A stretch of DNA of 35,798 nucleotides from Cellulomonas triticagri (GTDB lineage Bacteria; Actinomycetota; Actinomycetes; Actinomycetales; Cellulomonadaceae), in the NCBI RefSeq assembly GCF_003696205.1, contig NZ_RFFI01000034.1, positions 1-35,798 on the forward strand, written 5' to 3'. The translations under genes and the position numbers were made by a program. Shown in pieces: positions 15,167 through 33,268 of this stretch (the first letter of the stretch is position 1; the number at the start of each line of letters is the position of its first letter). Below the pieces are notes generated by a model, which did not search any database, had not been told where the DNA came from, and saw nothing but the letters and a program-made list of their open reading frames with translations.

Positions 15167-16390
15167 GTGCACATCGTCCTCGTCACCCACCACTACCTCC
15201 CCGAGGTGGGTGCTCCGCAGCGCCGGTGGGCGGCCCTCAGCGCGCGCTTCGTCGCCGCCGGGCACCGCGTCACCGTGCTGACCCCGCCGCCCCACTACCC
15301 CGAGGGACGTGCCGGCGACCTCACGGAGGACCTGCGCGTGCACGCGGTCGCGACGGGCCCTGGCGGGGAGCGGATCCACCGGGTGCGGTTCCGCGAGCAC
15401 GGTTCGGATCTGCGCAGCCGGACCCGTGACCAGGCGGTTGCCGCCGCGCACAGCGTCATCGTCGGCTGGCGACGCCTGCGGGGACCCGACCAGCCCGATG
15501 TCGTCGTCGCCACCGCGCCGGGGATCCCCTCGCTCGGAGCCGGCCACGTGCTCGCACGTGCCCTCGGCGTCCCCCTGGTGGTCGAGATGCGCGACGCCTG
15601 GCCGGACCTCATCGCCCCGAGCGGCATGTGGGGTGACGCCCGACGTCGCGGGTGGAAGCGGTTGGCGACCCGCCTCGCGCACCGCGGCGTCACGGCGATG
15701 CAGCGGCAGGCCGACGCCGTCGTCACGACCACGGCGTCGTTCGCGGACGTCCTGCTGGCGCGCCGCGTCACGAGCGTCGACGTCGTGCGCAACGGCGCCC
15801 CGCTGCACGAGCCCCTGCGGTCCGCCCCGGTGCCGGGGCCCCGGTTCCGGATCCTCTACCTCGGGACGATGGGCCGCAGCCAGGGCCTGACGACGGCACT
15901 GCGGGCGGCAGCCGACCTCGACCGTCGCGGGGTCCCCGCGACGCTGCGCCTCGTCGGTTCCGGGCACGAGGAGCCGTTGCTCCGCGCCGAGGCCCGCGCG
16001 CTGGGGGCTCCGGCGGAGTTCCTCGGTCGCGTCGCCCGCGCGCAGGTCTCCGAGCACTACGACTGGGCCGACACGGTCCTCGTGTCGCTGCGCGCGTGGG
16101 ACCCGTTCGAGTGGACGGTGCCGTCCAAGCTGTACGAGGCGATGGCCGCGGGGCGGCACGTCTCGGCGTCGTTGGCGGGTGAGGCCGCGTACGTGGTGCG
16201 GGAAGCAGGCGCCGGCGACGTCGTCCGGCCGGAGTCGCCGGAGGGGCTGGCCGACCTCTGGGCGGCTCTCGCCGCGGATCGTCGGCGTCTCGACGTGGGT
16301 GACCGCGGACGGCGCTGGGTCGCCGAGCACGCCAACTTCGACCGGCTCGCGGCGCACTACCTCGAGGTCATCGAGGGAGTGGTCGGGTGA
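15167..16390 (+). CDS. Glycosyltransferase family 4 (WbuB/RfaB-like)
   Basis: A 407-residue GT-B glycosyltransferase that would add one sugar from a nucleotide-sugar donor at the cytoplasmic face of the membrane. The N-terminal domain opens with HIVLVTHHYLPEVGAPQRRW, the typical start of the WbuB-like GT4 group, with VVEMRDAWPD near residue 140. The C-terminal domain shows FRILYLGTMGRSQGL and the donor-site segment PFEWTVPSKLYEAMAAGR. There is no membrane segment or signal peptide. The GTG at 15167 follows AGGAG by 9 nt. It is first in a five-gene operon and overlaps the next gene by 4 nt (GTGA). The sugar specificity cannot be read from sequence. Confidence 0.92.
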   Translation: MHIVLVTHHYLPEVGAPQRRWAALSARFVAAGHRVTVLTPPPHYPEGRAGDLTEDLRVHAVATGPGGERIHRVRFREHGSDLRSRTRDQAVAAAHSVIVGWRRLRGPDQPDVVVATAPGIPSLGAGHVLARALGVPLVVEMRDAWPDLIAPSGMWGDARRRGWKRLATRLAHRGVTAMQRQADAVVTTTASFADVLLARRVTSVDVVRNGAPLHEPLRSAPVPGPRFRILYLGTMGRSQGLTTALRAAADLDRRGVPATLRLVGSGHEEPLLRAEARALGAPAEFLGRVARAQVSEHYDWADTVLVSLRAWDPFEWTVPSKLYEAMAAGRHVSASLAGEAAYVVREAGAGDVVRPESPEGLADLWAALAADRRRLDVGDRGRRWVAEHANFDRLAAHYLEVIEGVVG

Positions 16391-18120
16391 ACGTCGCACG
16401 CGACGCGGCCCGCTCGCTCGCCCTGGCCGTGACGGCGGTCGCGGGGATGCTGCGCGAGGACCCGTGGTTCCTGGCCGTGCAGGTCGCGCGGCGGCTGCCC
16501 CGCCCCCTGAGCGGTCTCGTCGCCCGGGGGCTGCTGCGCGGGGCGCCGACGACCGCGGTGCGCGCGGTCGTCGGGCACTGGCTCGCCGGACGACGCGCCC
16601 AGGCGACCAGCCAGGTGCCGGCCGCCCGTCCCCGGGGCCGCCTCGGCGCGCGCGTCCTGCGGGAGGTCGCGGCCGAGCTGGAGGCCGTCCCGATCGAGCA
16701 GCTCCCCGCCGGGACGACCCGAGCGCGGGCGGCGTGGCGGGCCGGGGCGCTCACCGCCGCGCGGGAGGAGGCCGACCGCGCAGGCGCTCGCCACCTCGCC
16801 GAGCGGTACGCGGCGGAGTCCGCGATGCTCCGACCGGGGTTCCGGGTGCCGACGCGTCCGGGGCCGGCGCCCATCGCGTCGCGGGCACGCGGCGGACCGC
16901 GCGCGCTCCACCTGCTCACGAACTCGTACCCGCACACGAGCAGCGGGTACGCGGCTCGTTCCCACGCAGTGCTGCGCGCCCAGGCCGGCGCGGGGATCCA
17001 GGTGCTCGCCGCGACGCGGCTCGGCTACCCGGTCTCCGTGGGACGGTGGACCGCCCGCAGCGCCGACGTCGTCGACGGGGTCACGTACGCGCGCCTGCTG
17101 CCCGCGCGGATGCCCGCCACGGCGGTCGATCGCGCCGCGCGCACCGTGGACGGGCTCCGCCCGTTGGCCAGGTCCGCCGGCAGCACCGTCGTGCACACGA
17201 CCACGCCGTACGGCAACGGCCAGATCGCGCGTGCGCTCGCCGACGAGGTCGGCGTCCCCTGGGTCTACGAGGTCCGGGGGCTGCTCGAGCAGACCTGGGT
17301 CGCCGGTAGGCCGGACGCCGCGTCCCGGTCACGAGCCGCGGCCAGCGAGCGGTTCTCCCTGCTCCGCGCGCAGGAGGCCGCGGTGGCGGCGGCTGCTGAC
17401 CACGTGGTGACGCTCAGCGCCACCATGCGCGACGACCTCGTCGCGCGCGGAGTCCCCGCCGAGCGGGTGACCTTGGTCCCGAACTCCGTGGACGAGCGAC
17501 TGCTGACCCTCCCGGACGCCGGGCCGGGAGCGGCGCGTCGGGACCTCGGACTGCCGGAAAGCGGATTCTGGGTCGGTACTGTGAGCAGCCTTGTGGGATA
17601 CGAAGGACTGGACGCGCTCGTCGACGCGGTCGTGGCGCTCCGCGCGCGCGGCGTCGATGCGCGTGCCTGCCTGGTCGGTGACGGCGTCGCACGGCCCGAG
17701 CTGGAGCGTCGGGCGCAGGCAGCGGGGCTCGGAGACGCACTCGTGCTCCCGGGACGCGTGCCGGCCGCCGACGCCCCCCGCTGGCACCGGGCGCTCGACG
17801 TCTTCGTCGTCCCCCGCCGCGACGTCGAGGTGTGCCGCCAGGTGACACCGCTCAAGCCGGTCGAGGCGATGGCCCTCGGACGCCCCGTGGTCGCGAGCGA
17901 CCTGCCTGCGCTCGCCGAGGTGCTGTCCGGCGGCGCCGGCCGCCTGGTCGCACCGGAGGACCCCGAGGCCCTCGCCGACGCCCTGGACGACCTCCGGAGC
18001 GACGAGGCCGCTCGCGCCGACCTGGTCGCGGCCGGCCGCGAGGTCGCGGCCGGCCGGACCTGGGCCGCGGCGGGCTCGCGGTACCGCGAGCTGTACGAGC
18101 GACTGGGCGCGGGCGCGTGA
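16387..18120 (+). CDS. Glycosyltransferase family 4 with N-terminal helical extension
   Basis: A 577-residue GT-B enzyme, longer than the usual 380-420. Residues 1 to about 165 are a helical, Arg/Ala-rich extension without a recognised domain; it contains FLAVQVARRLPRPLSGLVARGL, which could be an amphipathic membrane-binding helix. The glycosyltransferase begins at about 175 (ALHLLTNSYPHTSSGYAARS), continues with VPWVYEVRG, and the C-terminal domain shows VTLVPNSVD, WVGTVSSLVGYEGLDAL and the donor-site region PLKPVEAMALGRPVVASD. It overlaps both neighbours by 4 nt (GTGA), so it is translated with them. It probably extends the same glycan. Linkage and sugar are unknown. Confidence 0.9.
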   Translation: MNVARDAARSLALAVTAVAGMLREDPWFLAVQVARRLPRPLSGLVARGLLRGAPTTAVRAVVGHWLAGRRAQATSQVPAARPRGRLGARVLREVAAELEAVPIEQLPAGTTRARAAWRAGALTAAREEADRAGARHLAERYAAESAMLRPGFRVPTRPGPAPIASRARGGPRALHLLTNSYPHTSSGYAARSHAVLRAQAGAGIQVLAATRLGYPVSVGRWTARSADVVDGVTYARLLPARMPATAVDRAARTVDGLRPLARSAGSTVVHTTTPYGNGQIARALADEVGVPWVYEVRGLLEQTWVAGRPDAASRSRAAASERFSLLRAQEAAVAAAADHVVTLSATMRDDLVARGVPAERVTLVPNSVDERLLTLPDAGPGAARRDLGLPESGFWVGTVSSLVGYEGLDALVDAVVALRARGVDARACLVGDGVARPELERRAQAAGLGDALVLPGRVPAADAPRWHRALDVFVVPRRDVEVCRQVTPLKPVEAMALGRPVVASDLPALAEVLSGGAGRLVAPEDPEALADALDDLRSDEAARADLVAAGREVAAGRTWAAAGSRYRELYERLGAGA

Positions 18121-18998
18121 GCGCCGCGACGTCCTCGACCCGGCGTGCGGTCAGGACCGAGGTGGTCGACGGGAGCCAGCTCGCCCCGGTCACCCAGCGA
18201 CCTCCGCTCCGCGAGTACCTGGGCCGGTTGTGGGAGCGCCGCCACTTCATCCGGGCCGACGCCCGGGCGAAGGTCGTGGCCGGTTCCCGGGGCACGCTGC
18301 TCGGCACCGCCTGGTTGGTGCTGCGCCCGGTCCTCGACGCTGCCGTCTACCTCGTGATCTTCGGGCTCGTGCTGCGCGCGGACCGCGGGATCGAGAACTT
18401 CCTCGGGTACCTCGTGATCGGGACCTTCATGTTCCAGTTCACCTCTCGTTGCCTGAGCACCGGCGCGCAGTCGCTGATCAGCGGGAAGGCGCTGATGAAG
18501 TCGTTCGCGTTCCCCCGCGCCGCACTGCCGGTCGCCACCGTGGTCCGGGAGACGATCAGCTACGGACCCGTCCTGGTGGCGATGGTCGCGATCCTCCTGG
18601 TGCTGCCGGACTCGCCCGTGCTGAGCTGGCGGTGGGCGCTGGTCCCCCTGGCGATCGCGCTGCAGGTCGTCATGGGCCTCGGGCTGGCCCTGCTCGCGGC
18701 GCGGCCGACCGCGCGCGTCCCCGACCTCCAGCACATCATCGGGTTCTTCAGCCGGTTCTGGCTGTACGGGTCGGCGGTGTTCTTCTCGTACGAGCGATTC
18801 GTGTCGCACCCGCAGGTCCTCGAGCTCGTGCAGCTCAACCCCATGTTCCGGGTCCTGGAGATCACGCGGGACTGCCTGCTCTACGGCATCACCCCGGGTG
18901 CGGAGGCCTGGGTGATCCTGGGCGCGTGGGCCGGCGCGCTCCTGACGGCGGGCCTGGTCGTGTTCTGGCGCGGGGAGGAGCGCTATGGCGCCCTCTGA
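18117..18998 (+). CDS. ABC polysaccharide exporter, membrane subunit (Wzm/TagG-like)
   Basis: A 293-residue ABC-2-type permease with about six membrane helices, forming the channel half of a glycan exporter. A cytoplasmic N-terminus (REYLGRLWERRHFIRADARA, about 29-48) and the motif GTLLGTAWLVLRPVLDAAVYLVIFGL are characteristic of TagG/RfbD/Wzm proteins; LNPMFRVLEITRDCLLYG near 240 is the family's C-terminal signature. The GTG at 18117 overlaps the preceding stop codon by 4 nt. A much longer open frame upstream in this phase is a shadow of the glycosyltransferase gene. Its partner ATPase begins 14 nt before this gene ends. Confidence 0.93.
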   Translation: MSAATSSTRRAVRTEVVDGSQLAPVTQRPPLREYLGRLWERRHFIRADARAKVVAGSRGTLLGTAWLVLRPVLDAAVYLVIFGLVLRADRGIENFLGYLVIGTFMFQFTSRCLSTGAQSLISGKALMKSFAFPRAALPVATVVRETISYGPVLVAMVAILLVLPDSPVLSWRWALVPLAIALQVVMGLGLALLAARPTARVPDLQHIIGFFSRFWLYGSAVFFSYERFVSHPQVLELVQLNPMFRVLEITRDCLLYGITPGAEAWVILGAWAGALLTAGLVVFWRGEERYGAL

Positions 18999-19902
18999 CC
19001 GGTTCCCCGCCGAGGTGCAGGTGGCGGTGGACGACGTGCACGTCCGGTACCGGACCGCGTCCGACGACGCCACGCTGCGCCGCGGCCTGCCCCGTTGGCA
19101 GCGCGCCGCGAACCGGCTGGTCGGGCGGGAGCCGACCGTGCTGGTCCGCGCGCTCGCCGGGGTCTCCCTGGTCGCGCGCGCGGGCGAGGCGGTGGGCGTC
19201 GTCGGTCTGAACGGCTCGGGCAAGAGCACGCTGCTGCGGGTGATCGCCGGGCTCGAGACCCCGCACCGTGGACGCGTGCGTGCCCGCTCCGCACCGGTCC
19301 TGCTGGGGGTGAACGCCGCCCTGCTCCCCGAGCTCTCCGGCAGCCAGAACGTCCGTCTGGGGTGCCTCGCCATGGGGATGACCCCCGACGAGGCCGAGGC
19401 CGCGTACCCGCAGGTCGTCGAGGTCGCCGGGATCGGACCGTCGATCCACCGCCCGATGAAGACCTACTCCTCGGGGATGGCGGCCCGGCTGAAGTTCGCG
19501 ATCGCTGCCGCCTCGGACCCGCAGATCCTGCTCATCGACGAGGCCCTGGCCACCGGGGACGCGGCCTTCCGCGAACGCAGCGAGGAGCGCATGAACCACC
19601 TGCGGCGGCAGGCCGGTTGCGTGTTCCTGGTGAGCCACGCCGCGAAGACCATCGAGGAGACGTGCACGCGAGCGATCTGGCTCCACCGCGGGCACGTCGT
19701 GACGGACGGACCCGCCTACGACGTCGCCCAGGCCTACCGGTGGTGGGCCTGGAACCTCGCCAAGGGGCAGACCGAGACCGCGGCGTCGCTCCTCGAGGAC
19801 GCCTTCCGCCAGGGGACCGACACCCGCGTGGTCCTGGCCCCGGAGGACGCGGGCAGCGCCGTCCCCCGGCACGCACGACTCCGATCCGGAGGTTCCGTAT
19901 GA
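18985..19902 (+). CDS. ABC polysaccharide exporter, ATPase subunit (Wzt/TagH-like)
   Basis: A 305-residue ATPase that powers export of a lipid-linked glycan with the preceding permease. It has Walker A GLNGSGKST (74-82), signature YSSGM (161-165), Walker B ILLIDEALATGD (181-192) and the switch His in VSHAA (about 218). The long segment between the first strands and Walker A (about 25-65) is typical of Wzt/TagH. Only about 50 residues follow the nucleotide-binding domain, so the C-terminal carbohydrate-binding domain found in Wzt proteins that sense a chain-end cap is absent. The ATG at 18985 follows GGGGAGGAG and overlaps the permease gene by 14 nt. The stop codon overlaps the next start (ATGA). 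Confidence 0.93.
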   Translation: MAPSDRFPAEVQVAVDDVHVRYRTASDDATLRRGLPRWQRAANRLVGREPTVLVRALAGVSLVARAGEAVGVVGLNGSGKSTLLRVIAGLETPHRGRVRARSAPVLLGVNAALLPELSGSQNVRLGCLAMGMTPDEAEAAYPQVVEVAGIGPSIHRPMKTYSSGMAARLKFAIAAASDPQILLIDEALATGDAAFRERSEERMNHLRRQAGCVFLVSHAAKTIEETCTRAIWLHRGHVVTDGPAYDVAQAYRWWAWNLAKGQTETAASLLEDAFRQGTDTRVVLAPEDAGSAVPRHARLRSGGSV

Positions 19903-21044
19903 CCCTGCGCGTGATGACCGTGTACGGCACCCGACCCGAGGCCATCAAGTGCGCGCCGGTGGTGCAGGCACTGGCCGCATCCCCCGACTTCGAGGGGATC
20001 ACCGTGGTCACCGGGCAGCACCGCGAGATGCTCGACCAGGTCAACGAGCTGTTCGGGATCGTGCCGGACCACGACCTGGACGTCATGAGCCACGGGCAGA
20101 CGTTGAGCGGGATCTTCGCCCGCGTCCTCGACGGCCTGGATCCCCTGCTGGTGAGCGAGCAGCCCGACGCCGTGGTCGTGCAGGGGGACACGACGACGTC
20201 CACCGCGGCGGCGCTCGCCGCGTTCTACCGCGGGATCCCCGTCGTGCACCTCGAGGCGGGGCTGCGCTCCGGTGATCTCGCGTCCCCCTTCCCGGAAGAG
20301 GGAAACCGGCGCCTGACCAGCCAGATCGCCTCGGTGCACCTCGCGCCGACGACCACCAGCCGGGACAACCTGGTCGCGGAGGGCGTGGATCCTGACCGCA
20401 TCGTCGTCACCGGGAACACGGTGATCGACGCACTGCTCGACACGGTGCGCCGCGGACTGCCGTTCGCCGACGGCGCGCTGGAGGACGCCGTCACCTCAGG
20501 GCGCAAGGTGCTGCTGGTCACCACCCACCGGCGGGAGAACTGGGGCGGTGCGATGCAGGGGGTGGGACGCGCCGTGGCCCGTCTCGCACGTGACCACGAG
20601 GACCTGCTCGTGGTGCTGCCCGCCCACCGCAACCCCGTGGTGCGGGAGGCGATCCTCCCCGAGCTGTCGGGCCTGCCCAACGTCGTCGTGACCGAGCCGC
20701 TCCCGTACGGGGAGTTCGCACGGCTGATGTCCGAGGCCCACGTGATCCTGTCCGACTCCGGCGGTGTGCAGGAGGAGGCGCCGTCTCTCGGCACCCCTGT
20801 GCTCGTGATGCGGGACACCACGGAGCGACCGGAGGCCGTCGCCGCGGGAGCGGTCCGGCTCGTGGGCACCGACGAGGAGACGATCGTCTCCGAGGTCGGA
20901 CGACTGCTGCGTGACGCCGAGGCGCACGCCTCGATGGCGACGGCCGCGAACCCGTACGGCGACGGGACCGCGGCCCGGCAGAGCCTCGACGCGATCCGGG
21001 CGATGGTGCCGGCGCAGCGCGGGCCTCAGGGTTCCCCGTCCTGA
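19899..21044 (+). CDS. wecB: UDP-N-acetylglucosamine 2-epimerase
   Basis: A 381-residue non-hydrolysing epimerase (WecB/MnaA) that interconverts UDP-GlcNAc and UDP-ManNAc in the cytoplasm. Family motifs are clear: VMTVYGTRPEAIK at the start, VTGQHREMLDQV (about 40-51), VQGDTTT, HLEAGLRSGD, PFPEEGNR, TTHRRENWG in the middle, and SDSGGVQEEAP near 290. The ATG at 19899 follows CGGAGG and overlaps the ATPase gene by 4 nt; longer frames in this phase are shadows. It is the last gene of the plus-strand operon. Together with the UDP-ManNAc dehydrogenase gene of the opposite operon it completes a route to UDP-ManNAcA, as in enterobacterial common antigen and some teichuronic acids. Confidence 0.96.
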   Translation: MTLRVMTVYGTRPEAIKCAPVVQALAASPDFEGITVVTGQHREMLDQVNELFGIVPDHDLDVMSHGQTLSGIFARVLDGLDPLLVSEQPDAVVVQGDTTTSTAAALAAFYRGIPVVHLEAGLRSGDLASPFPEEGNRRLTSQIASVHLAPTTTSRDNLVAEGVDPDRIVVTGNTVIDALLDTVRRGLPFADGALEDAVTSGRKVLLVTTHRRENWGGAMQGVGRAVARLARDHEDLLVVLPAHRNPVVREAILPELSGLPNVVVTEPLPYGEFARLMSEAHVILSDSGGVQEEAPSLGTPVLVMRDTTERPEAVAAGAVRLVGTDEETIVSEVGRLLRDAEAHASMATAANPYGDGTAARQSLDAIRAMVPAQRGPQGSPS

Positions 21045-21092: not shown

Positions 21093-23090
21093 TTACCGGG
21101 CCGTCTCCCCGGGCGCCGCAGCCGGGCTGAGATCCGGCGCCTCGCGCTGCTCGACCCGGTCGAACGCGGAGACCAACGACGTCTCGAACAGGTCCCGAGA
21201 CACGGGGACGTGTCCCTCCCCGAGGTCCACGGGAACGACCCGCACGCGACCGTCGGCGGAGGTGCCTCCGGTGGTCGAGAGCCCGAACACGGCAGCGAAC
21301 GGCTGGCAGTGCTCCTGGACGTGATGTGTGTCCCCCTGGTTGATCACCAGATCGACCAGGTTGGACGTGCCCAGCTCGTATCTGCGCGTGACATCCACGC
21401 GCTCCCGCACCCGCGGGTCCGACTGCGGCTCGTCACAACCGAAGACGGTCCGCGCGGCACGTTCCCAAGCCGCCCGGTTGTAGCGCCAGAGGATCGTCTG
21501 CGGCGCGAAAGCCACCGCGATGCTCTGAGGTATCCGCGCCGCGAGCTGCAGGGCCGCGAACCCACCACCGCTCCCTCCGGTCACGGCGAGCGCGCTCGCC
21601 GAGCTGGCATCTCTCATGCGCGACGTCAACGCGTGGACGACGTCGAGCAGGTCGTCGTCGGCGGACCCGAGGAACCAGCCGAGCCCGAGGTCCGGATCTC
21701 GCACGAGTGTGGCGTCCGAGACCAGCAGGAACGACCAGGCAGCCTCCTTCTGCGACGTGACGCGCTCGAAGTACGGGTACTCGGTGCTGGCCCTGTCGAC
21801 CGCGCCGTGGAATCCCACCGCGAGCCTGCTGCTGCGGCGCACCCCCGCCATCGTCCACACGCGCACCTCGCCGTCGTCCACCGGGTACAGGGCCACGACG
21901 CCACGCGCGGGGGCAAACCCCTCGACGGGCGTGGGCTCCGCGATCGGGAGCTGGTAGCGCGGGTGCCACCCCGCCACGTGGAGCATGCCGCCATCGGCAT
22001 GACGGTCTGCGCGCGCGACCCGCGCAGCCCCGACAACCAGTGCCGCACCCGCCAGGCCCGGCACCCCGCTGACGTAGAACCGGATCGCCTCGACGGGTGC
22101 TCCCTCGGCGGTCTGTCCCCGGACGTCGGTGAGCAGCTCGCGCGGAACCGCCAGTCGCAGCACCTCGTCTTGTTCGACAGCAGAGAACATCATGCGGTGG
22201 TACACCCCGCGGGACACGGTGCCGACCGCGACGTACCGGAGGCTCGCCCACCCGACGAGGCACACCTCGATCTCGAGCTGGTCACCGTGAGCGGTGGTCG
22301 GGATGTCGACCACGTGCCGGTCCCCGGGACCATCGAACGCCCACTGGTGCCCGTGCGCAGGACCGTCGCTCGGCGCCACCTGCGCCAGGCCCGCTCGGAA
22401 GTGGTCGTAGAACGACGGCACCAGGTGGAACGGTGAGGCGCCCCACCTGTGCTCCCGCGCCGCGACGAGGTCACGCGAGCGAGGCTCGACGAACTGGTGC
22501 TCCGACAGGTCCTGGCGCATCCGTGCGTAGAGGCGGGCCAGGAAGGCGTTCGCAGCCGCGATGCGCTCGTCGGAGTAGATCGCTGGGAGCGGACCCCCGT
22601 CGTCGACCTCCGATGCCCACCGCGCCGCGTTGACCCGGAGGTCCGCACGCCGACCTCGGGCGTCCAGCACACGGAGAAGGCGCTCCCAGCCGGCTTCCCA
22701 CAGCCGGAAGAACTCGTCGCTGCCCGACCGGATTCGCCGGCCCGCTGGCGGAGTGGTGACGCGGCTGAGCTCTGCGGACCACGTGCAGAGCGCCCCGGAG
22801 GTCGGGTGCTCCAGCAGGTCGAAGCGTTCGTCGACCGGGTCGTACACCACCAGCTCGCTGTCGTCCGTCGCCAGGAGCACCGGTAGCGACTTCCGCAGGT
22901 CCTGCTCGACCATGCGCCGCTGGAACGCGGACTCGATCCCCTCCAGGTCGACGTCGTCGAACGGCACCGCCCCGAACGCGCTCGCCAGTGACGTCCGCGC
23001 GTAGTAAGTGCTGATCTGCCACCGGTCGGCGTCCTGAGGGCCGAAGGCGTCCCGCGTGACGCAGCTGCCGACGATCGCGACCCGTGTCAT
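21093..23090 (-). CDS. DUF6270 + alpha/beta-hydrolase two-domain protein
   Basis: A 665-residue protein without signal peptide or membrane helix. The N-terminal part (1 to about 235) begins TRVAIVGSCVTRDAFG, the mark of DUF6270 proteins found in polysaccharide loci; the GSC block resembles the first block of SGNH esterases. Residues about 245-380 look like a beta-sandwich. The C-terminal part (about 390-645) has an alpha/beta-hydrolase pattern: nucleophile elbow TGGSGGGFAAL with Ser507, DTHHVQEH at about 587-594, and GEGHVP with His627. A plausible role is adding or removing acyl groups on the glycan, loosely like Asp2 of the accessory Sec system; this is inference. The ATG at 23090 overlaps the stop of the giant gene by 4 nt (ATGA), so both are made together. 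It is the last gene of the operon. Confidence 0.75.
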   Translation of the reverse strand: MTRVAIVGSCVTRDAFGPQDADRWQISTYYARTSLASAFGAVPFDDVDLEGIESAFQRRMVEQDLRKSLPVLLATDDSELVVYDPVDERFDLLEHPTSGALCTWSAELSRVTTPPAGRRIRSGSDEFFRLWEAGWERLLRVLDARGRRADLRVNAARWASEVDDGGPLPAIYSDERIAAANAFLARLYARMRQDLSEHQFVEPRSRDLVAAREHRWGASPFHLVPSFYDHFRAGLAQVAPSDGPAHGHQWAFDGPGDRHVVDIPTTAHGDQLEIEVCLVGWASLRYVAVGTVSRGVYHRMMFSAVEQDEVLRLAVPRELLTDVRGQTAEGAPVEAIRFYVSGVPGLAGAALVVGAARVARADRHADGGMLHVAGWHPRYQLPIAEPTPVEGFAPARGVVALYPVDDGEVRVWTMAGVRRSSRLAVGFHGAVDRASTEYPYFERVTSQKEAAWSFLLVSDATLVRDPDLGLGWFLGSADDDLLDVVHALTSRMRDASSASALAVTGGSGGGFAALQLAARIPQSIAVAFAPQTILWRYNRAAWERAARTVFGCDEPQSDPRVRERVDVTRRYELGTSNLVDLVINQGDTHHVQEHCQPFAAVFGLSTTGGTSADGRVRVVPVDLGEGHVPVSRDLFETSLVSAFDRVEQREAPDLSPAAAPGETAR

Positions 23091-26000
23091 GCGCCCGCCG
23101 ACCGGGGAGCGATCAGCTCGATCTCGGTCGAGATCACGGCACGGGCAGAGGACTGCCGTCCCACCCGGGCTGCGGCCGCAGCAGACATCCGGCTGAACTC
23201 CTCCGGGTCACGGACCAGTGCCAGGACGCCGTCCGCCATGGCCCGGGCGTCCTCCGCCGGAGCGAGGATCCCGCACGTGCCGTCCACGAACTCAGGGATC
23301 GCCGCGACGTCATTCGTCACCGGGACCAGGCCAGACGCCATGGCCTCGTCGCGGGACACTCCATGCGTGTCCATCCGGGTGGGCACGAGGAAGATGCCGT
23401 GCTCCGCGTGGAGGTCCACGATCTCGTGCTGGCTGAGGAACCGGCGGTCGAGTACGACGTTCGGCAGGTGCTTGATCGGCGCGAGGGTCTCGTCGAACAG
23501 CGGGCCGTCACCGACGAACCGGAACCGCAGGCTCGCGAACTCCGGCTCGTCCCGCAGCATGAGCACAGCCTGCACCGCCAGGTCGTTGGCGTACGTGCGC
23601 GACGCGTACGGCCGGATCGACAGGATCGCGAACCGGAGACCAGGATCCTTGACCTGGAAGCGGAACAGGTCCGTGTCGATCGGGTTGTGGACGATCGCGT
23701 ACCGGGGCTCGTCGAGCTCGACCCCGACGTCGGACATCACCTCGTCTGCCAGGTACCGGGAGACGAACACGAACCGCACCCCGTCCCCCGGGTCCTGGAA
23801 GACGGAGCGCCAGAACGCGAGCCGGGCGTCGCTCTTCGCCTTCTCCGCCTCCAGCTCGTCGTCGCTCGTGATGTTGTACGCCCGCCGCCACCACGGCTGG
23901 ACCTCGGACCCGTGGATCCAGATGACCACGCGGGTCCCTGCAGGACGGTGCTGCAGCGCGGCCCACATCGCGGGGTCGAGGAAGTGCACCATCACGACGT
24001 CGTGCCCCCCGGACTGCAGTACCGACGACAGTGCACCAGCCGAGCCGGTCACGACGTCGATGCCCTCGAACTCGCGGTACCCGATCGACGCGCCCTCGCT
24101 GAGGCAGAAGACCTCGCAGTCGAGCCCGCGCTCGCGATAGCTCCGCACGCGCGAGTGCACGAAGCCGTTGCGGTAGAGATCGGCGTACGAGGGGTAGATG
24201 TTCGTGAGCACGAGCGCGCGCGCCCGCGGCAGGACGACCGCAGGTTCGGTGTCGCGGTGCCCCCACGTGACGCCGGCCAGCTCGGCGGAGCCCGACCCGC
24301 GCACCCGGATCCCGAGTTTGACACCCGTGGCGTCAGCGGGCACGGGGACGACCGTGTTGACGTGGCTCCGCACCACGGTCGAGCCGAGCCTCGTCTCGTC
24401 GTCGTCGTAGAACACCAGCGCGAGCTGCAGGTCGAGCCCGGTCGAGGTGTCGACGTGCACCGCCCCGGACGAGATCCATGCCGGCGCCAGGGGGACCATC
24501 TCGGTCGCGTAGATGTAGTCGTGCACGTTGTCGTCCAACCCAGCGGAGACGCGAAGCCCTGTGACGCCAGGCTCCAGGGTGATGCCGGCCCTGCTCGAAC
24601 GGTGGAAGAGCGCGGCGAGCTCGGTCCCGTACAGCCCCCTGGACTCCGTCGTTGCCGGCGGCGCCGGGCGGACCCGCTCCGCCGCGCTGAGGAGATCGGA
24701 CAGCTCGACCCCGTGGTCGACCACACGCCCGTCGACAGCGGCGGCGACCTGTTCGTCTCCGGCTGCCGCGCAGTAGCTGAGCCGGTCGATACTGGTCTGA
24801 GGGCCGAGGTCCGACGCTCCGTCCTGGCGGATCAGCTCCAGCAGGTCGTGGGCGACCAGCTGCCCACAGCTCGTGACCCTGATGACCGAGCGGCGCACCC
24901 CGAGTCCTTGCGTCAGCCGGTACTCGGTCCCGCCGACGAGCTCGACGCGATGGTCTCGCCACCGGTGGTAGCGGCTCTTGCCGATCACGGGGGACGACGT
25001 GTACCGGGTCGCCAGTGCGAGGTCGACCAGGTAGTCGGGCCCGTAGTAGTCGTCTCCCTCGAAGCAGGCGACGAGCTCGGCGTCGCCGGCGAGGTCCTGG
25101 ACCCGCGCACCGGCATCGCGCTGCGGCGCGAGCCGCACCCGCCCGTCCGCGACGTCGCGGCCCAGGAGCGCGTCGTCGACGAAGACGGTGGCCCGCCACT
25201 CCTGGTGGTTCTGCCGACCGAGCGAGTGCAGAACCCGATCCAGCGCCGGCTCGTCCGCAGCGGTCGCGACGACGTGGACGCCGATCGACCAGGGCTTCCA
25301 GTCCTGCCCGGTGACCCGGGACCACAGGTAGGCGGCTCGGTCCGCGTAGGTGTGCTGACGCATGACGTTGCGCAGTCCGGCCAGACGGAGCTCGTCCACG
25401 GCGCCCGACTCGGTGATGCCACGCAGCCGTCGCTCGGCCTCGAGCCCGTCATCCGTCGTCACCACGAGGTCACCGAAGAGGACCCGAGCTGCGCGGGCGT
25501 AGTTGCTGACAGTCAGGGTGTTGGACGCCAGCAGCTCGAAGACCCGTCGCGCCAGCATCGTCTGGGACTGCTTCACGGAGTTCAGGTTGACCGCGAAGCG
25601 GTAGCCCCGGTAAGCGTCTGCCACCTCGTGAGGGGCCAGCGTCCCGACGATCAGCTCCTGGTACTCCTCGGGGAAGCGGTAGGCCTCGTCCGTCCCGCCG
25701 AGGTTGCGGTCGAAGATCTCGACCGGCCGCAGCGCCGGGAGCGCCCGCACGAGGCTGGCCAGATCCCGCGTTCGCTCCGGGTACCTCCGGTAGTAGGCCC
25801 CGGCGAACACGAAGGCGTCCCGCCGGTCCTCGCTCTCGATGGGGTGGTGCTCGGCCGGCTGCGCCGCGAACGGGAGCAACCAGACACGGTCGTGCCCGAG
25901 TGCGGCCTTGTAGTGCTCGACACGGTCCAGGTCCGTGGTGAAGACGTGGTCGAAGAGCCCGGCCGCGTTGAGGAACGTCGTGTAGTGCACGGGGTCTTCC

Positions 26001-27931
26001 TTGTTCCAGAAGACGCTGGGAACCCCACGGACCCGGCACCACTCGACGATGGCCCGCAGTTCCGGTCCGGCACGATGGACCATGTTGTGCCAGCTGCCGT
26101 CCTGGCCTCGCCACGCCGACTCGACGAACAGCAGGTCAGGTGAGGCACCTGCCAGCTGCTCCTCCCACCCCTCCGGAGTCAGATCGACGAGGTCCCACTC
26201 CGGTGCGAACGACAGCCGCGTGAACTCGTCCATGATCGCCGCCACCCGCAGCCGCCCGCCGGGCTGGCGCACATCGGCCGCCACCGGTGTGGCCGTCCTG
26301 ACCGGCGCGCGCGGGTCGCGCCCATCGGACGCAGCCGGATCACCTGCGCCGCGGGTCGGCGCGGCAGGCTCGATCTGCTTCGGATGCGACGTGCGCGATG
26401 AGCGCGCGAGGCGAGCGAGCGCGAGAGGAAGCCGCAGTGCCGCCCCCACCGACGACGACGCGCGTCGGACCTCCTGCCCCGTCCGGAACGTCACGCTGCC
26501 CCGAAGTCGGCGCAGGTCGGCCTCGCTCGCCGCCGCACGGATGCGGGCTGCGTCGCGCTGCTGGGACAGCGTCCGGTTCTCGTCACGGAGGAGCTGGACG
26601 CGCAGCGCTGCCTCGTCTGCTGCCTGCGCCGTCGATCGCTCCAGGGCGACGCGGGCGGCCCGCTCGCGTTCCACCTCCTGCGACACCTCCGAGGCCGCGC
26701 GAGCCGCCACGTCATGGGCGTCGCGCTCGCGCTCCGCGATCTCCTGGTGTCGCTCGAGCGCACGCTCGAGCTCGGCGATGCGGCTCGTCGCGCGCTGCAG
26801 CTGCTCGGCGGCGTCCCGCCTGTCCGTCCGCGCCTGGAGGGTCGCTCGTCCGAGCGCGCTGCTGGCCGCCGACTCCGCCTCTCGCGCGGTCTGGAGCGCA
26901 CGACGGTGGTCCGCGACATCGATCCGGGCGCGCTCGCGCTCGGCTACGGCACTGCCCTCCCGCTCCGACGCCGCGCGACGGGCCTGCTCCGCGTCGGTCA
27001 GGCGCTCACGGAGCTCGAGCTCCGCGTCCTGGAGCGTCCGCTCGGTCTCGGCCGCGGCGTCGCGGACCGTGGTGAGCTCTGCCTTCGCCTGCGCGTACGC
27101 GGCGGTCAACGCGCGGTACTTGGCATTGGTCTCCGCGAGTCTGGCCTTCGTCGCTCCGAGCTGATCGACCGCTTCGAACCGTTCGCGCAACGCGCGAGCG
27201 ATCGCGCGGTCGAGGCGCTCGACCTCGGAGAGCCGCTCCGCCGGCTCGATCCGGAAGGTCGGCGTGGCGTTGAACTCGTCGCACAGCACGTAGTGGTGCG
27301 CAGCCGCCCACCGGTCGAGCTGGCTGAGGTCGTCGCGCGTCCGGCACTCGACGTAGATCGAGGGGCGGTGCGTCGCGATCATCGACTCAGCCCCGCGAAG
27401 GACCTCCACCTCCATGCCCTCGACGTCGATCTTGACGAGGGTCGGCGGGCCAGGCAGCACCTCGTCGTCCAGGCGCACCACCTCGATCGGCCCGGTGCCG
27501 AGACTGATCGACTGCCCGCCCAGGTTCTCCGGGGTCTCCTCGGCGAAGGTCCCGACCCCGGCCGCCTCTCCGACGGCGACCTGGCGGACCGACACCAGGT
27601 CGTCCAGACCGTTCAACCGCACGCTGCGGCGCAACGCGGTGACGAGGTGACCGTTCGGCTCGTAGGCGACGACCGAGCACCCGACGGTCGCCGCCAGGTA
27701 CACCGTGTGGTTCCCGACGTTCGCACCGAGGTCGAGCACGACGTCGCCCGGCCCGAGCCTGCTCGCCATGTCCTCGAGCATCGCCTGCTCGTACGGCAGA
27801 CCCGTGCTCGCGATCTTCCCCTGGATGTAGTCCGTCGCCGCATCGGGCACCGACAGCCGGAAGCTGGAGCTTCCGGACCGGACCACGACCGAGCCGGAGG
27901 TGTCGTCCTCGCGGGCGTCGGTCACCGCCAC
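23087..27931 (-). CDS. Giant fusion: FkbM methyltransferase, coiled coil, and multiple glycosyltransferase domains
   Basis: A 1614-residue cytoplasmic multi-domain protein. (1) Residues 35-220: FkbM-type SAM methyltransferase, with VVLDLGANVGNHTVYLA (64-80), YEPNGHL (90-96) and LVKIDVEGMEVEVLRGA (165-181). (2) 235-475: continuous Glu/Arg/Ala-rich heptads, a coiled coil of about 240 residues. (3) 480-555: linker. (4) 560-875: CgeB-like GT-B domain (LLFVESAWRGQDG, VPSVFWNKEDPVHY), close to the upstream 638-residue protein. (5) 880-1080: GT2-like GT-A domain with FEGDDYYGPDYLVD. (6) 1105-1230: beta-sandwich. (7) 1238-1610: GT4 domain (LVLTNIYPSYADLYRNGF, WIHGSEVQPWW, GVSRDEAMASGLVPV). Such a protein could polymerise, methylate and perhaps size a glycan. 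GTG at 27931 is the longest start; GTG at 27925 gives a 4-nt overlap with wecC and fits the ribosome-binding site better. Confidence 0.88.
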   Translation of the reverse strand: MAVTDAREDDTSGSVVVRSGSSSFRLSVPDAATDYIQGKIASTGLPYEQAMLEDMASRLGPGDVVLDLGANVGNHTVYLAATVGCSVVAYEPNGHLVTALRRSVRLNGLDDLVSVRQVAVGEAAGVGTFAEETPENLGGQSISLGTGPIEVVRLDDEVLPGPPTLVKIDVEGMEVEVLRGAESMIATHRPSIYVECRTRDDLSQLDRWAAAHHYVLCDEFNATPTFRIEPAERLSEVERLDRAIARALRERFEAVDQLGATKARLAETNAKYRALTAAYAQAKAELTTVRDAAAETERTLQDAELELRERLTDAEQARRAASEREGSAVAERERARIDVADHRRALQTAREAESAASSALGRATLQARTDRRDAAEQLQRATSRIAELERALERHQEIAERERDAHDVAARAASEVSQEVERERAARVALERSTAQAADEAALRVQLLRDENRTLSQQRDAARIRAAASEADLRRLRGSVTFRTGQEVRRASSSVGAALRLPLALARLARSSRTSHPKQIEPAAPTRGAGDPAASDGRDPRAPVRTATPVAADVRQPGGRLRVAAIMDEFTRLSFAPEWDLVDLTPEGWEEQLAGASPDLLFVESAWRGQDGSWHNMVHRAGPELRAIVEWCRVRGVPSVFWNKEDPVHYTTFLNAAGLFDHVFTTDLDRVEHYKAALGHDRVWLLPFAAQPAEHHPIESEDRRDAFVFAGAYYRRYPERTRDLASLVRALPALRPVEIFDRNLGGTDEAYRFPEEYQELIVGTLAPHEVADAYRGYRFAVNLNSVKQSQTMLARRVFELLASNTLTVSNYARAARVLFGDLVVTTDDGLEAERRLRGITESGAVDELRLAGLRNVMRQHTYADRAAYLWSRVTGQDWKPWSIGVHVVATAADEPALDRVLHSLGRQNHQEWRATVFVDDALLGRDVADGRVRLAPQRDAGARVQDLAGDAELVACFEGDDYYGPDYLVDLALATRYTSSPVIGKSRYHRWRDHRVELVGGTEYRLTQGLGVRRSVIRVTSCGQLVAHDLLELIRQDGASDLGPQTSIDRLSYCAAAGDEQVAAAVDGRVVDHGVELSDLLSAAERVRPAPPATTESRGLYGTELAALFHRSSRAGITLEPGVTGLRVSAGLDDNVHDYIYATEMVPLAPAWISSGAVHVDTSTGLDLQLALVFYDDDETRLGSTVVRSHVNTVVPVPADATGVKLGIRVRGSGSAELAGVTWGHRDTEPAVVLPRARALVLTNIYPSYADLYRNGFVHSRVRSYRERGLDCEVFCLSEGASIGYREFEGIDVVTGSAGALSSVLQSGGHDVVMVHFLDPAMWAALQHRPAGTRVVIWIHGSEVQPWWRRAYNITSDDELEAEKAKSDARLAFWRSVFQDPGDGVRFVFVSRYLADEVMSDVGVELDEPRYAIVHNPIDTDLFRFQVKDPGLRFAILSIRPYASRTYANDLAVQAVLMLRDEPEFASLRFRFVGDGPLFDETLAPIKHLPNVVLDRRFLSQHEIVDLHAEHGIFLVPTRMDTHGVSRDEAMASGLVPVTNDVAAIPEFVDGTCGILAPAEDARAMADGVLALVRDPEEFSRMSAAAAARVGRQSSARAVISTEIELIAPRSAGA

Positions 27932-29175
27932 ACCCCGCGCGTGTCGATGACGACCTTCTCGCGCAGGCGGAGGCGGCGTCGGTCGGCCGCCTTGAACTGC
28001 GTGTGGTCGACGAGCAGGACGACGATGTCGGCCTCACGCACGGCTTCCTCCAGCGGCTCGAGGGTCACGTTCGGCAGCTCCGCGAGGTCGCCGGGCAGCG
28101 ACTCGATGTTCGGTTCCACCGCGGCGATCTTCGCACTGGGCAGGGCCGACGCGAGCCGGGAGACGATCGCTCGGGCGGGCGACTCGCGCAGGTCGTCGAT
28201 GTCGGGCTTGAACGCGAGACCGAGCGCGGCGATACGGGGCTCGCGCAGGCGCTCGGCCTTGGCGACGACGCGGTCGACGACCAGCCCGGGCTTGGCGTCG
28301 TTGACCTCGCGGGCGGTGCGGATGAGTCGCGCCTCGTCGGGCGCGGACGACACGATGAACCACGGGTCGACGGCGATGCAGTGCCCACCGACGCCGGGGC
28401 CGGGCTGCAGGATGTCGACCCGCGGGTGGTGGTTCGCGAGCTCGATGAGCTCCCAGACGTCGATGCCGAGCTTGCCGCAGATGACGGAGAGCTCGTTCGC
28501 GAACGCGATGTTGACGTCGCGGTAGGAGTTCTCCACCAGCTTCGCCATCTCGGCGGTCACCGCGTCGGTCGTGACGATCTCGCCCTGGCAGAAGGTCGCG
28601 TAGAGGTCCTTCGCGCGTCGAGCGGCCTCGGTCGTGAGGCCGCCGACGATCCGGTCGTTCGTGACCAGCTCGACCATGACCCGCCCGGGCAGCACCCGCT
28701 CGGGGCAGTGGGCGACGTGCAGCAGCGGACGCCCGCCGGTTCCGTCCAGGCTGAGGTCGGGACGGGCCGCGAGCAGGCGGTCCGCGAGGTGCTGGGTCGC
28801 ACCCGGGGGCGAGGTCGACTCCAGGATCACGAGCTCGTCGCCCCGCAGCTGCGGGGCGATCGCGTCGGCCGCCGCGTCGATGTACGCGAGGTCGGCGGTG
28901 TGGTCGTCCTGGAACGGCGTGGGCACGGCCACGACGTACACCTCGGCCTGCGGCGTCTCACGCTGCGCCCGCAGGCGTCCCTGGGAGACCGCGCCGGCCA
29001 CCGAGACCGACAGGTCGGGCTCGACGAACGGGACCTCGCCGCGGTTCACGGCCTCGATCGTCGACGCGTTGACGTCGACGCCGATCACGTCCGCGGCATG
29101 GGTGGCCAGGACGGCGGCGGTGGGCAGGCCGATGTAGCCGAGACCGATGACGGCGACGGTGGGACGGTCGGACAC
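27922..29175 (-). CDS. wecC: UDP-N-acetyl-D-mannosamine dehydrogenase
   Basis: A 417-residue NAD-dependent dehydrogenase that oxidises UDP-ManNAc to UDP-ManNAcA (uronic acid). It opens with a Rossmann fold, TVAVIGLGYIGLPTAAVLA. VAVPTPF (83-88), AHCPERVLPG (155-164), the KLVENSYRDVNIAFANEL helix (Lys212) and the catalytic Cys266 in GPGVGGHCIAVDPWF are WecC-type, and distinct from the GGGCLPKD of the UDP-glucose dehydrogenase at 12-13.3 kb. The C-terminal domain has IAALGLAFKPDIDDLRESP. The GTG at 29175 is the family start; AGAGG lies upstream. A longer open frame upstream in this phase is a shadow. It pairs functionally with wecB in the opposite operon. WbpA/UDP-GlcNAc dehydrogenase is an alternative specificity, made less likely by wecB. 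Confidence 0.92.
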   Translation of the reverse strand: MSDRPTVAVIGLGYIGLPTAAVLATHAADVIGVDVNASTIEAVNRGEVPFVEPDLSVSVAGAVSQGRLRAQRETPQAEVYVVAVPTPFQDDHTADLAYIDAAADAIAPQLRGDELVILESTSPPGATQHLADRLLAARPDLSLDGTGGRPLLHVAHCPERVLPGRVMVELVTNDRIVGGLTTEAARRAKDLYATFCQGEIVTTDAVTAEMAKLVENSYRDVNIAFANELSVICGKLGIDVWELIELANHHPRVDILQPGPGVGGHCIAVDPWFIVSSAPDEARLIRTAREVNDAKPGLVVDRVVAKAERLREPRIAALGLAFKPDIDDLRESPARAIVSRLASALPSAKIAAVEPNIESLPGDLAELPNVTLEPLEEAVREADIVVLLVDHTQFKAADRRRLRLREKVVIDTRGVWR

Positions 29176-31146: not shown

Positions 31147-32223
31147 CTACTCGACCACGGGCGGCAGCACGTCGACGAGATCGGAGCGTGTCGCGAGGAA
31201 GGCGTCGACGGCGTCGTCGCGGACGGAGGTCATGAGCTCGTCGAGCGCCGGCTGGTCCAGCACGACGATGCTCTGCGCGCCGTCCGGGCTGCGGCCGGTG
31301 CCGTTGGTCGGCACGGTGAAGAACGCGATGTCGTTCGACCCCAGGTTGCGTGCCATGTTCTGCAGCTGGGACATGACGCCGTCATCCAGGCCCGGGTCGG
31401 TGGCGACGGAGTCGCCCACGGCGCGCAGGAACGGAACCGACTTCACCGGGTTGGACAGCGTGCCCTCGTTGCGCATCCGCGCGACCATCGCGCGGATCCA
31501 CGCCTGCTGACGCTGCACCCGGTCGAAGTCGCCGCGCGCGAGGGTCTTGCGCTCGCGCACCCAGCGCAGGGCCTGCTCGCCGCTCAGCAGCTGGTGCTTA
31601 CCAGCCGGCACCGTGGTGCCGCCCACGGTGAGGTCCGTGTCGAGCGTGATCCGCACGCCACCCATCGCGTCCGTGATGGCGACGAACGACTCGAAGTCCG
31701 CGATCGCGAAGTGGTCGATCCGGACACCGGTCAGCTGCTCGACGGTCTGGATCATCAGCGGCGCGCCGCCGTAGGAGAACGCCGCGTTGATCTTGGCCTG
31801 GCCGTGCCCCGGGACGTCGACCCAGGAGTCGCGCGGGATCGACATGACGTACGCCGCTTCGCCGTCCGCGGGCAGGTGCACCAGCATGATGGTGTCGGTG
31901 CGCTGCGCACCGGCCTGCCACTGCGACGGGTCTCCCGCGGAGATGCGGCTGTCGGAGCCGAGCAGCAGCAGGTTCATCGGCGCGTCCCACTCGTCCTCGG
32001 CCACGTCCGCCGGGGCGGTGGCGGCCGGCGGACGCGTCGGCAGCGCCGCGAACGGGTCGTCGATCTTCTCGACCCGCCCCGCCAGCCACTGCTGGATGCC
32101 CCAGACGCCGCCGAGCCCGATGCCGGCGAGACCGACGAGCAGGCACAGGCTGATCACGAGCGCACGGCGACCTCGGCTCGTCGTCGAGCGGGCACGCCTC
32201 GATCGGCGGGTGTGGGAGCGCAT
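31147..32223 (-). CDS. LCP-family (LytR-CpsA-Psr) glycopolymer ligase
   Basis: A 358-residue membrane-anchored phosphotransferase that moves lipid-linked glycopolymers onto peptidoglycan outside the cell. A basic cytoplasmic N-terminus (RRSRRARSTTSRGRR) leads to one membrane helix (about 22-45, ALVISLCLLVGLAGIGLGGVW). The extracellular LCP domain (about 80-240) has LLLGSDSR, QRTDTIMLVHL, the SIPRDSWVDVPGHGQAKINAAF block with the catalytic Arg/Asp cluster, and the later DFDRVQRQQAWI segment. The ATG at 32223 follows AGGA by 8 nt. It is the first gene of the minus-strand operon, so attachment of the polymer is encoded together with its synthesis. A terminator and 130 bp separate it from the chemotaxis genes. 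Confidence 0.94.
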   Translation of the reverse strand: MRSHTRRSRRARSTTSRGRRALVISLCLLVGLAGIGLGGVWGIQQWLAGRVEKIDDPFAALPTRPPAATAPADVAEDEWDAPMNLLLLGSDSRISAGDPSQWQAGAQRTDTIMLVHLPADGEAAYVMSIPRDSWVDVPGHGQAKINAAFSYGGAPLMIQTVEQLTGVRIDHFAIADFESFVAITDAMGGVRITLDTDLTVGGTTVPAGKHQLLSGEQALRWVRERKTLARGDFDRVQRQQAWIRAMVARMRNEGTLSNPVKSVPFLRAVGDSVATDPGLDDGVMSQLQNMARNLGSNDIAFFTVPTNGTGRSPDGAQSIVVLDQPALDELMTSVRDDAVDAFLATRSDLVDVLPPVVE

Positions 32224-32281
32224 AGCAGAAATCCTACGGTCGGGTGAGGGGGTAAACACCCAACAGGGTGGCAAATGGGTG

Positions 32282-32309
32282 AGCCCCGGCGGAAGATCCC
32301 GCCGGGGCT
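32282..32309 (-). terminator. Hairpin terminator after the chemotaxis operon
   Basis: AGCCCCGGCGG (32282-32292) pairs perfectly with CCGCCGGGGCT (32299-32309) around AAGATC. It lies 45 bases beyond the stop of the last chemotaxis gene and upstream of the LCP gene. Confidence 0.75.
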
Positions 32310-32353
32310 GCCATCCCATGTCGCCACCCACCCACGACCTAGGGCCCGGGTGG

Positions 32354-32842
32354 TCAGATGACGAGCACCGAGGCGGTGCCCTTGCCGTAGCCCGGGACCT
32401 CGACGGTCAGGTCGAGGCGCCGCACGTACGCCAGCACCCACTGGGCGACGTCGGCGGGCAGCGGCTCGCGCGGGGCGTACCACTTGTCGAGCTTGAGGTG
32501 CGGGGCGTCCCCGACGTTGAACAGCGCGGCGGTCACGTTGAGGATCTCCGCGGCGTTCTCGGCCAGCGTCGAGGGCAGCTGCTCCTCCTCGGCGGCGGTC
32601 TGCGCCGTGCGCGCGGGCACCAGGGCGATGGACGCCCCGAGGTGCGCGGCGAGCGGCAGGTCGAACAGCACGAGCGCCGAGAGCTTCATGAGCCGGTCGA
32701 CGTAGACGCCGACGAGGGCGCCGCCGTTCAGCACGGGGTCGACCATCGGGCCGCCGGTGGCGACCTCGACGTCCCGACCGATGAGGCCCTCCCACAGCTC
32801 GCGCACCTCGAGGGCGGCGGGCAGCGGGGTCTGGTCGCTCAT
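32354..32842 (-). CDS. CheX/CheC-like protein, divergent
   Basis: A 162-residue soluble protein without clear family match. LAENAAEILNVTAALFN (93-109) resembles the E-x-x-N active-site helix of CheC/CheX phosphatases (Glu99, Asn102), and the predicted strand-helix pattern before it (VGVYVDRLMKLSALVLFDLPLAAHLGASIALVP) is compatible with that fold. The second E-x-x-N helix of CheC is not obvious. It follows a cheY gene with a 4-nt ATGA overlap, which is the context expected for a CheY-P phosphatase or a CheY-regulated partner. The assignment rests on this motif and its neighbours; a PilZ-like or unrelated fold cannot be excluded. It is the last gene of the chemotaxis operon. Confidence 0.55.
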   Translation of the reverse strand: MSDQTPLPAALEVRELWEGLIGRDVEVATGGPMVDPVLNGGALVGVYVDRLMKLSALVLFDLPLAAHLGASIALVPARTAQTAAEEEQLPSTLAENAAEILNVTAALFNVGDAPHLKLDKWYAPREPLPADVAQWVLAYVRRLDLTVEVPGYGKGTASVLVI

Positions 32843-33201: not shown

Positions 33202-33268
33202 GCTCGTCACTTCCCTTCGGTGGCGGGTCCCGCGACGGTGGACGCGGGGGAACGGGGGTCGGCGTGGG

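Follow-up and report, generated by a model that had tools for sequence, protein, structure and literature searches.

How bacteria gauge the length of their surface polysaccharides is understood for few O antigens so far. In all the cases of ABC-exported O antigens discussed in one account, the terminator is located at the far end of a coiled coil, and proteins that unite terminator, ruler and polymerase on one chain have been described, with WbbB of Klebsiella pneumoniae O12 and ORF6 of K. pneumoniae O7 holding all or nearly all of these elements (PMC11231755). ORF6 consists of a methyltransferase-kinase, a coiled coil and two GT2 modules, whereas the terminator of WbbB is a Kdo-transferase, not a methyltransferase, and its glycosyltransferases belong to other families (PMC11231755). 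In Escherichia coli O8 and O9a, the terminator WbdD and the polymerase WbdA are separate proteins and the Wzt ATPases possess a cap-reading module; the O8 WbdD lacks a kinase and the O9a WbdD contains a coil (PMC3482155). Among Gram-positive bacteria, WsaE of Geobacillus stearothermophilus, encoded in a wzm/wzt locus, combines an N-terminal methyltransferase with two glycosyltransferase domains, and a 2-O-methyl cap has been proposed for its glycan (PMC2943079). The teichuronic acid synthetase of Micrococcus luteus builds a wall polymer with ManNAcA derived from UDP-ManNAcA (PMC3005890).

The window, i.e., the entire stretch of 35,798 nucleotides of Cellulomonas triticagri DNA that was analysed, encodes on the minus strand a 1614-aa protein (P0001; 23087-27931) in which AlphaFold models and family searches delineate, from the N- to the C-terminus, an FkbM methyltransferase, a long helix, a CgeB-like GT-B module, a GT-A-like module, a beta-sandwich and a GT4 module. 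The family matches cover residues 64-200 (FkbM), 740-869 (CgeB-like Glyco_trans_1_2) and 1262-1601 (within which the GT4 families fall). With O7 ORF6 this protein shares an N-terminal terminator-type enzyme, a coil, C-terminal polymerase modules and an ABC export locus, and with WbbB the predicted combination of polymerisation, termination and a coil in one polypeptide (PMC11231755); a methyltransferase as the candidate terminator is common to it and WbdD (PMC3482155). Unlike ORF6, it has an FkbM head, a GT-B/GT-A/GT4 core in place of two GT2 modules, and ManNAcA rather than rhamnose precursor genes in its vicinity (PMC11231755), and a kinase or CBM-like domain is excluded because the helix begins ~6 residues past FkbM. 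WsaE likewise comes from a Gram-positive bacterium and a wzm/wzt locus, but its glycan is an S-layer rhamnan, and the available text of the paper, with whose description rather than sequence we compare the fusion, mentions no coil (PMC2943079). The M. luteus synthetase resembles our system as a maker of a Gram-positive wall polymer, but the accessible part of its description presents an octamer of two subunits of ~54 and 52.5 kDa and neither a methyltransferase nor a coil (PMC3005890). The anatomy fits a terminator-ruler-polymerase of known kind that differs in head, core, precursor and Wzt. Distinct from these precedents are the FkbM-type head, the ManNAcA-linked core, the lack of a kinase domain and an ATPase devoid of the cap-reading module. 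The original prediction saw here a WbdD/WbdA-like plan brought onto one chain; the order is indeed real and recurrent, but ORF6, WbbB and WsaE are closer precedents. Literature searches, with most subscription journals outside their coverage, returned no paper joining FkbM, a coiled coil, glycosyltransferases and chain length, and this fusion family is named in none of the titles and abstract openings listed.

A scan of genome contigs yielded 279 relatives, the best 80 of which were retained and correspond to 79 distinct loci; a plasmid search added three loci, in Leisingera (L001, L002) and Caballeronia (L003), where the core adjoins wecB and/or wecC in each case, for a set of 82 loci with 84 core ORFs. 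Two more loci fall outside the 84, L005, in which a C-terminal GT2 replaces the GT4, and L004, with a different core. An FkbM head is present in 19 of the 84 core ORFs and another class I methyltransferase (Methyltransf_11/23) occupies the same end in 24, and no head was found in 41, all proportions being biased by the single scan, by patterns placed inside the CgeB module and by the choice of the best 80 of 279. When ten long non-FkbM extensions were searched against Pfam, nine proved to be methyltransferase heads and one a GT4; these nine account for the Pfam-based part of the 24 heads of the other type, and the remainder were assigned with a profile made from six of the nine. Among the taxa with FkbM heads are Cellulomonas, Nocardioides, Aeromicrobium, Arthrobacter, Nitrospira, Desulfovibrio and 13 Pseudomonadota.

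The fusion ORF is confirmed as a real gene by its start, which overlaps the 3' end of the upstream wecC by a few bases, by its GC content at the three codon positions (0.74/0.49/0.90), which resembles that of other gene-like ORFs in the window, and by the preservation of the architecture in relatives. There is hardly any chance that the long frame is a fortuitous fusion, a sequencing artefact or a dead methyltransferase, even if the frequent loss and exchange of heads among relatives would agree with such an explanation. The same module order in relatives rules out the first two, C. iranensis in particular retaining it at 69% identity in FkbM and 65% in the core, and the recurrence of the FkbM head and the invariance of its SAM motifs make a dead enzyme unlikely. 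These motifs comprise D67, G69, A70, N71, G73, N74, H75, E91, K167, D169, E171 and G172, identical in 20 of 20 FkbM heads, which we take to be the key SAM-binding and family motif positions.

The head itself (aa 14-230; 27242-27892, minus strand) belongs to the FkbM family as originally predicted, scoring 90.4 bits against TIGR01444 (cut-off 37.7) and 46.7 bits against PF05050 (cut-off 22.7), and is modelled as such a domain with pLDDT mostly >90 from 20 aligned sequences. Many class I methyltransferases match this model structurally, the solved FkbM protein 2py6 included (Z 16.2, rmsd 2.0 over 163 residues). With a profile of the FkbM domain and coil together, 45 solved sequences were matched, 2py6 among them and none named WbdD; for the profile of the other-type heads, WbdD is absent among the 60 matches listed of 108. 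A kinase-type terminator in the style of O9a or O7 is ruled out, since FkbM ends at ~230 and the helix begins at 236 in the AlphaFold model, leaving no room for that domain.

The helical region (aa 236-514; 26390-27226, minus strand) was modelled, as a monomer with pLDDT of about 53-88, together with the FkbM domain. It consists of helices at 236-325 and 335-514, with minor interruptions, on either side of a predicted weak break at 326-334 (26930-26956, minus strand; pLDDT about 53-55), and its hydrophobic periodicity is strongest for a period of 3.5 residues (z 4.1 relative to shuffled sequences). If straight, the 279-residue helix would be ~41 nm long. Thus, of the coiled coil at 235-475 that had been proposed, the long heptad-periodic helix stands, but it extends to about 514 and is interrupted by one weak break.

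Between coil and core, a scan of the tails delineated a junction element (aa 479-514; 26390-26497, minus strand) with the pattern [FY][QR]xG...LPxxL. The pattern was composed post hoc, after inspection of the tails: a first, narrower version was found in 5 of 20 FkbM-headed, 2 of 24 other-headed and 3 of 41 headless proteins, and the widened one matches the tails of 29 of the 44 proteins with a methyltransferase head and of 8 of the 41 without, compared with none of 510 core windows, 6 out of 1700 shuffled tails and 22 of 1942 other ORFs. The hydrophobic moment reaches 0.58 at aa 483-500. An amphipathic, membrane-associated helix is located beyond the coil in WbdD (PMC11231755), and by analogy the junction element might act at the membrane in a similar manner.

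The polymerase core was modelled with high confidence (pLDDT 93.5, pTM 0.91; 69 sequences), the module borders being our approximate reading of the model. The CgeB-like GT-B module (aa 560-877; 25301-26254, minus strand; PF13524) retains R795 and R796 in 69 of 69 aligned cores and E799 in 65. The GT4 module at the C-terminus (aa 1236-1612; 23096-24226, minus strand) is of the retaining type and a member of GT4, with a GT-B fold and with the acidic pair D1521 and E1529 as well as H1340 conserved in 69 of 69 cores; it matches GT4-type structures such as 6kih (Z 33.0) and 3c4q (Z 32.3), in a list by which the other core domains were barely probed. Judged by conservation, then, the motifs of both the methyltransferase and the GT4 module are intact. 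The GT-A-like module between them (aa 882-1092; 24656-25288, minus strand) lacks a conserved DxD, with D at position 960 in only 21 of 69 cores and D961 in 66, and additionally keeps D970 (69/69), K985 (67/69) and D1049 (65/69). A neighbouring CgeB plus GT-A protein (P0006; 29222-31138, minus strand) is paralogous to the CgeB-like and GT-A-like modules of the core (41% identity over 464 columns) and has an intact DDDD motif at the place of the lost DxD; given this erosion next to an intact paralogue, the GT-A-like module of the fusion may have become degenerate or inactive. Accordingly, the count of three glycosyltransferase domains made in the original prediction applies with intact motifs to the CgeB-like and GT4 modules, but perhaps not to the middle one, and the beta-sandwich that it listed is present as modelled strands at about 1112-1227 (24251-24598, minus strand).

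With respect to the genomic context, the minus-strand genes follow each other in the order of transcription as LCP glycopolymer transferase (31147-32331), P0006, wecC (UDP-ManNAc dehydrogenase; 27922-29163, start approximate; NF008286, 578.9 bits, cut-off 459), the fusion and a DUF6270 protein (21093-23090) whose esterase match is weak (E 0.003, short of the cut-off). Converging on them are plus-strand genes for two GT4-type glycosyltransferases (15167-16390 and 16387-18120), a Wzm-like ABC permease (17832-18998, the real start probably lying after 17832; PF01061 at residues 164-348), a Wzt/TagH-like ABC ATPase (18985-19902) and wecB (UDP-GlcNAc 2-epimerase; 19899-21044; TIGR00236, 454.5 bits, cut-off 210.15). 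To call the fusion a self-contained polymerase was an overstatement, as at least three further glycosyltransferase genes belong to the locus, and the exporter genes predicted to adjoin it are indeed present in the locus but lie ~3.2 kb away (17832-19902), in convergent orientation, with wecB and the DUF6270/esterase gene in between. Together, WecB and WecC produce UDP-ManNAcA, and the presence of both genes suggests that the locus makes a ManNAcA-containing polymer; wecB flanks 63 and wecC 65 of the 84 core ORFs (flanks of 8-9 kb or less, shorter at some contig ends). Given the LCP gene, the polymer is most likely attached to peptidoglycan, in the manner of M. luteus teichuronic acid (PMC3005890). 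Proteins resembling at least part of the DUF6270 protein are encoded near 11 of the 19 FkbM-headed core ORFs; as a guess, this protein possibly is an acyl-modification enzyme. Chemotaxis-type genes (response regulators, CheX, CheR, CheB; 32839-35737, minus strand) adjoin the polysaccharide locus, and a DUF4012 protein is encoded at 7043-8812 (minus strand).

We propose, with slightly better than even confidence, that the fusion unites a polymerase with a built-in chain terminator, and that in it the spacing provided by the coil sets the length of methyl-capped chains. Under this hypothesis, the CgeB-like GT-B and GT4 modules of the C-terminal core, perhaps aided by the GT-A-like one, would work at the membrane, presumably as part of an oligomer, and extend a lipid-linked wall polysaccharide that contains ManNAcA, while the coiled coil would keep the N-terminal FkbM domain tens of nanometres off. 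As soon as the chain had grown far enough to reach FkbM, its non-reducing end would be methylated and elongation would stop; Wzm and Wzt would then export the chain, and the LCP protein would join it to peptidoglycan. The terminator reading is favoured by the module order, by the intact motifs, by the precursor genes near most core ORFs, by the occurrence of two families of class I methyltransferases at the same distal place, by the fixed core as against the variable linker, by the coupling of head and coil and the restriction of duplications to coils (see below), and by the published one-chain precedents (PMC11231755; PMC2943079). A caution comes from WsaE, whose methylation was independent of chain length in vitro (PMC2943079).

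Of the traits of the ruler class, the fusion locus displays a predicted terminating-type enzyme in the distal position, an extended coil and ABC transporter genes; the cap-reading module on the ATPase, which couples the cap to export, is lacking. The window ATPase has about 41 residues beyond the ATPase homology and no match to Wzt_C, the cap-reading carbohydrate-binding module, at E 0.01, which counts against cap-gated export and is the reason why we do not count the fusion as a full member of the class of WbdD, WbbB and ORF6. Near the core ORFs of relatives, KpsT-like ATPases (>60 bits; 26 of 84) and Wzt-like ones (11 of 84) were detected, and among the seven Wzt-type and one KpsT-type ATPases that were checked, Wzt_C was found only in L044. 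We know of no cap reading by KpsT-type exporters.

The same missing module, the lack of a detectable head in 41 cores, which is to be expected of an optional decoration, and the broad range of substrates methylated by FkbM enzymes are compatible with the strongest rival explanation, namely that FkbM decorates repeats along the chain with internal O-methyl groups, with the coil merely a tether and oligomeriser. We consider this unlikely, because a linker of such length would be superfluous for a decorating enzyme, two methyltransferase families share the distal place, and duplications within coils mostly preserve the heptad register.

The linker from the methyltransferase to the core measures 145-1047 aa (median 390) in the 44 headed proteins, window included, whereas the core, from the start of CgeB to the end of GT4, spans 1003-1090 aa in 84 of 84 (1046-1064 for the 5-95% range); in the headed Pseudomonas relatives, linkers run to about 440 to 1047 aa. 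The original prediction named coil length that varies freely, with no link to polymer size, as evidence against a ruler, and the about sevenfold range of linkers bears out the first half of that condition. Even the two nearest relatives have linkers of 372 and 442 aa compared with 327 in the window (45 and 38% linker identity), with core spans of 1052 and 1059 aa (65 and 54% core identity); a rule by which coil length shifts solely by multiples of 7 among near relatives is unsupported by these lengths. Of the 43 linkers of relatives, 39 exceed z 3 at the heptad-type periodicity of 3.5, with 3.5 the best of seven periods in 35 and 3.6 in 8. Against a terminator-ruler count the variation in the three nearest proteins, the four linkers below z 3, the helix break in the window, the headless cores, frequent head exchange, and L050, a headed protein with about 40 coil residues.

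The exchange of heads is apparent on a quick LG+G4 tree of 69 of 85 cores (four plasmid cores and twelve near-duplicates excluded), which carries warnings for composition and long branches. Head class changes 25 times on this tree, compared with a shuffled mean of 28.4 and equally low values in 15 of 200 shuffles, and the starred branches force at least 11 changes for headless, 7 for FkbM and 6 for the other kind. Thus, head and core are loosely tied. The core, with no head found in 41 of 84, evidently can do without one. Head and coil, however, go together, with the core unchanged by either. Coils of 150 residues or more track the head in about 8 of 11 independent pairs on starred branches (69 rows) and oppose it in none, coil length being called by our own heuristic; the median p values of this test are 0.0156, 0.039, 0.008 and 0.008 at coil cut-offs of 80, 100, 150 and 200.

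This coupling bears on another alternative, that the coil is mainly a scaffold for oligomerisation, for membrane placement through the junction element and for docking of other glycosyltransferases, with its length nearly neutral. The wide variation in coil length, nearest relatives included, the junction element with which the coil of 29 of the 44 headed proteins ends, and the role of the helical bundle in driving WbdD trimer formation (PMC3482155) would all agree with it. A pure scaffold, however, would be expected equally often in headless proteins, whereas 40 of the 41 headless cores have fewer than 200 coil residues, the sole exception being L059 with about 220; we therefore regard the scaffold explanation as quite improbable.

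Tandem duplications at the DNA level were detected in 14 of 43 coils compared with 0 of 43 cores; their periods are whole heptads (multiples of 7 aa) in 11 of 15 distinct arrays (binomial p 4e-7), or, when the three arrays of 7 aa are set aside, in 8 of 12 (p 5e-5), p values that are optimistic because some loci are related and heptad composition may favour short arrays. The four arrays off the heptad have periods of 79, 39, 95 and 39 aa. In the window coil, the only tandem repeat is a 9-base unit in 2.5 copies, and no long one was found there. Tandem duplication is indicated as one route by which rulers change.

More tentatively, these proteins could represent a widespread family of ManNAcA-polymer synthases with an exchangeable methyltransferase head and an evolvable rod, lengthened mostly through whole-heptad duplications, that set length by reach alone with no cap-reading transporter. 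If so, bacteria would retune the length of capsules or wall polymers by copying or deleting coil repeats; the natural linkers, from <150 to >1000 residues, would measure some 20 to 155 nm if helical throughout. Overall, the original interpretation is partly supported. A near-constant core combined with a sevenfold range of linkers and with two methyltransferase families or none amounts to a ready-made length series, spanning Gram-positive wall polymers and Gram-negative capsules, on which the rule relating polymer to coil length can be tested with seemingly one chemistry.

For the headless cores, a possible lead is a ruler acting in trans. Separate long coil proteins, called with the same heuristic, are encoded near 15 of 41 headless compared with 1 of 43 headed core ORFs, a contrast that is not significant in independent pairs; among the 15, the ORF of L051 runs antisense to the core, and the one entered for L003 lies in antisense over a genuine coil ORF. 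Such proteins accompany the headless cores of L003, L029, L030, L034, L037, L058, L061, L062, L070, L078, L080 and L084, and Pfam searches with nine of the separate coil proteins gave no match. By our reading, a putative methyltransferase-like domain lies at the end of those from L003, L061 and L037.

Two plasmid-borne genes deserve mention. In Leisingera L001 (7372-12315), the annotated start is at 7918, but the reading frame is open as far upstream as 7372, and the stretch thus omitted holds a Methyltransf_23 domain; the start site is likely misannotated. On pSymB of Sinorhizobium meliloti (L004, 5947-9075), a single 1042-aa protein joins FkbM to a coil-like stretch and a match to GT2, and its gene adjoins a KpsT-like gene and, in our reading, a putative KpsE-like one.
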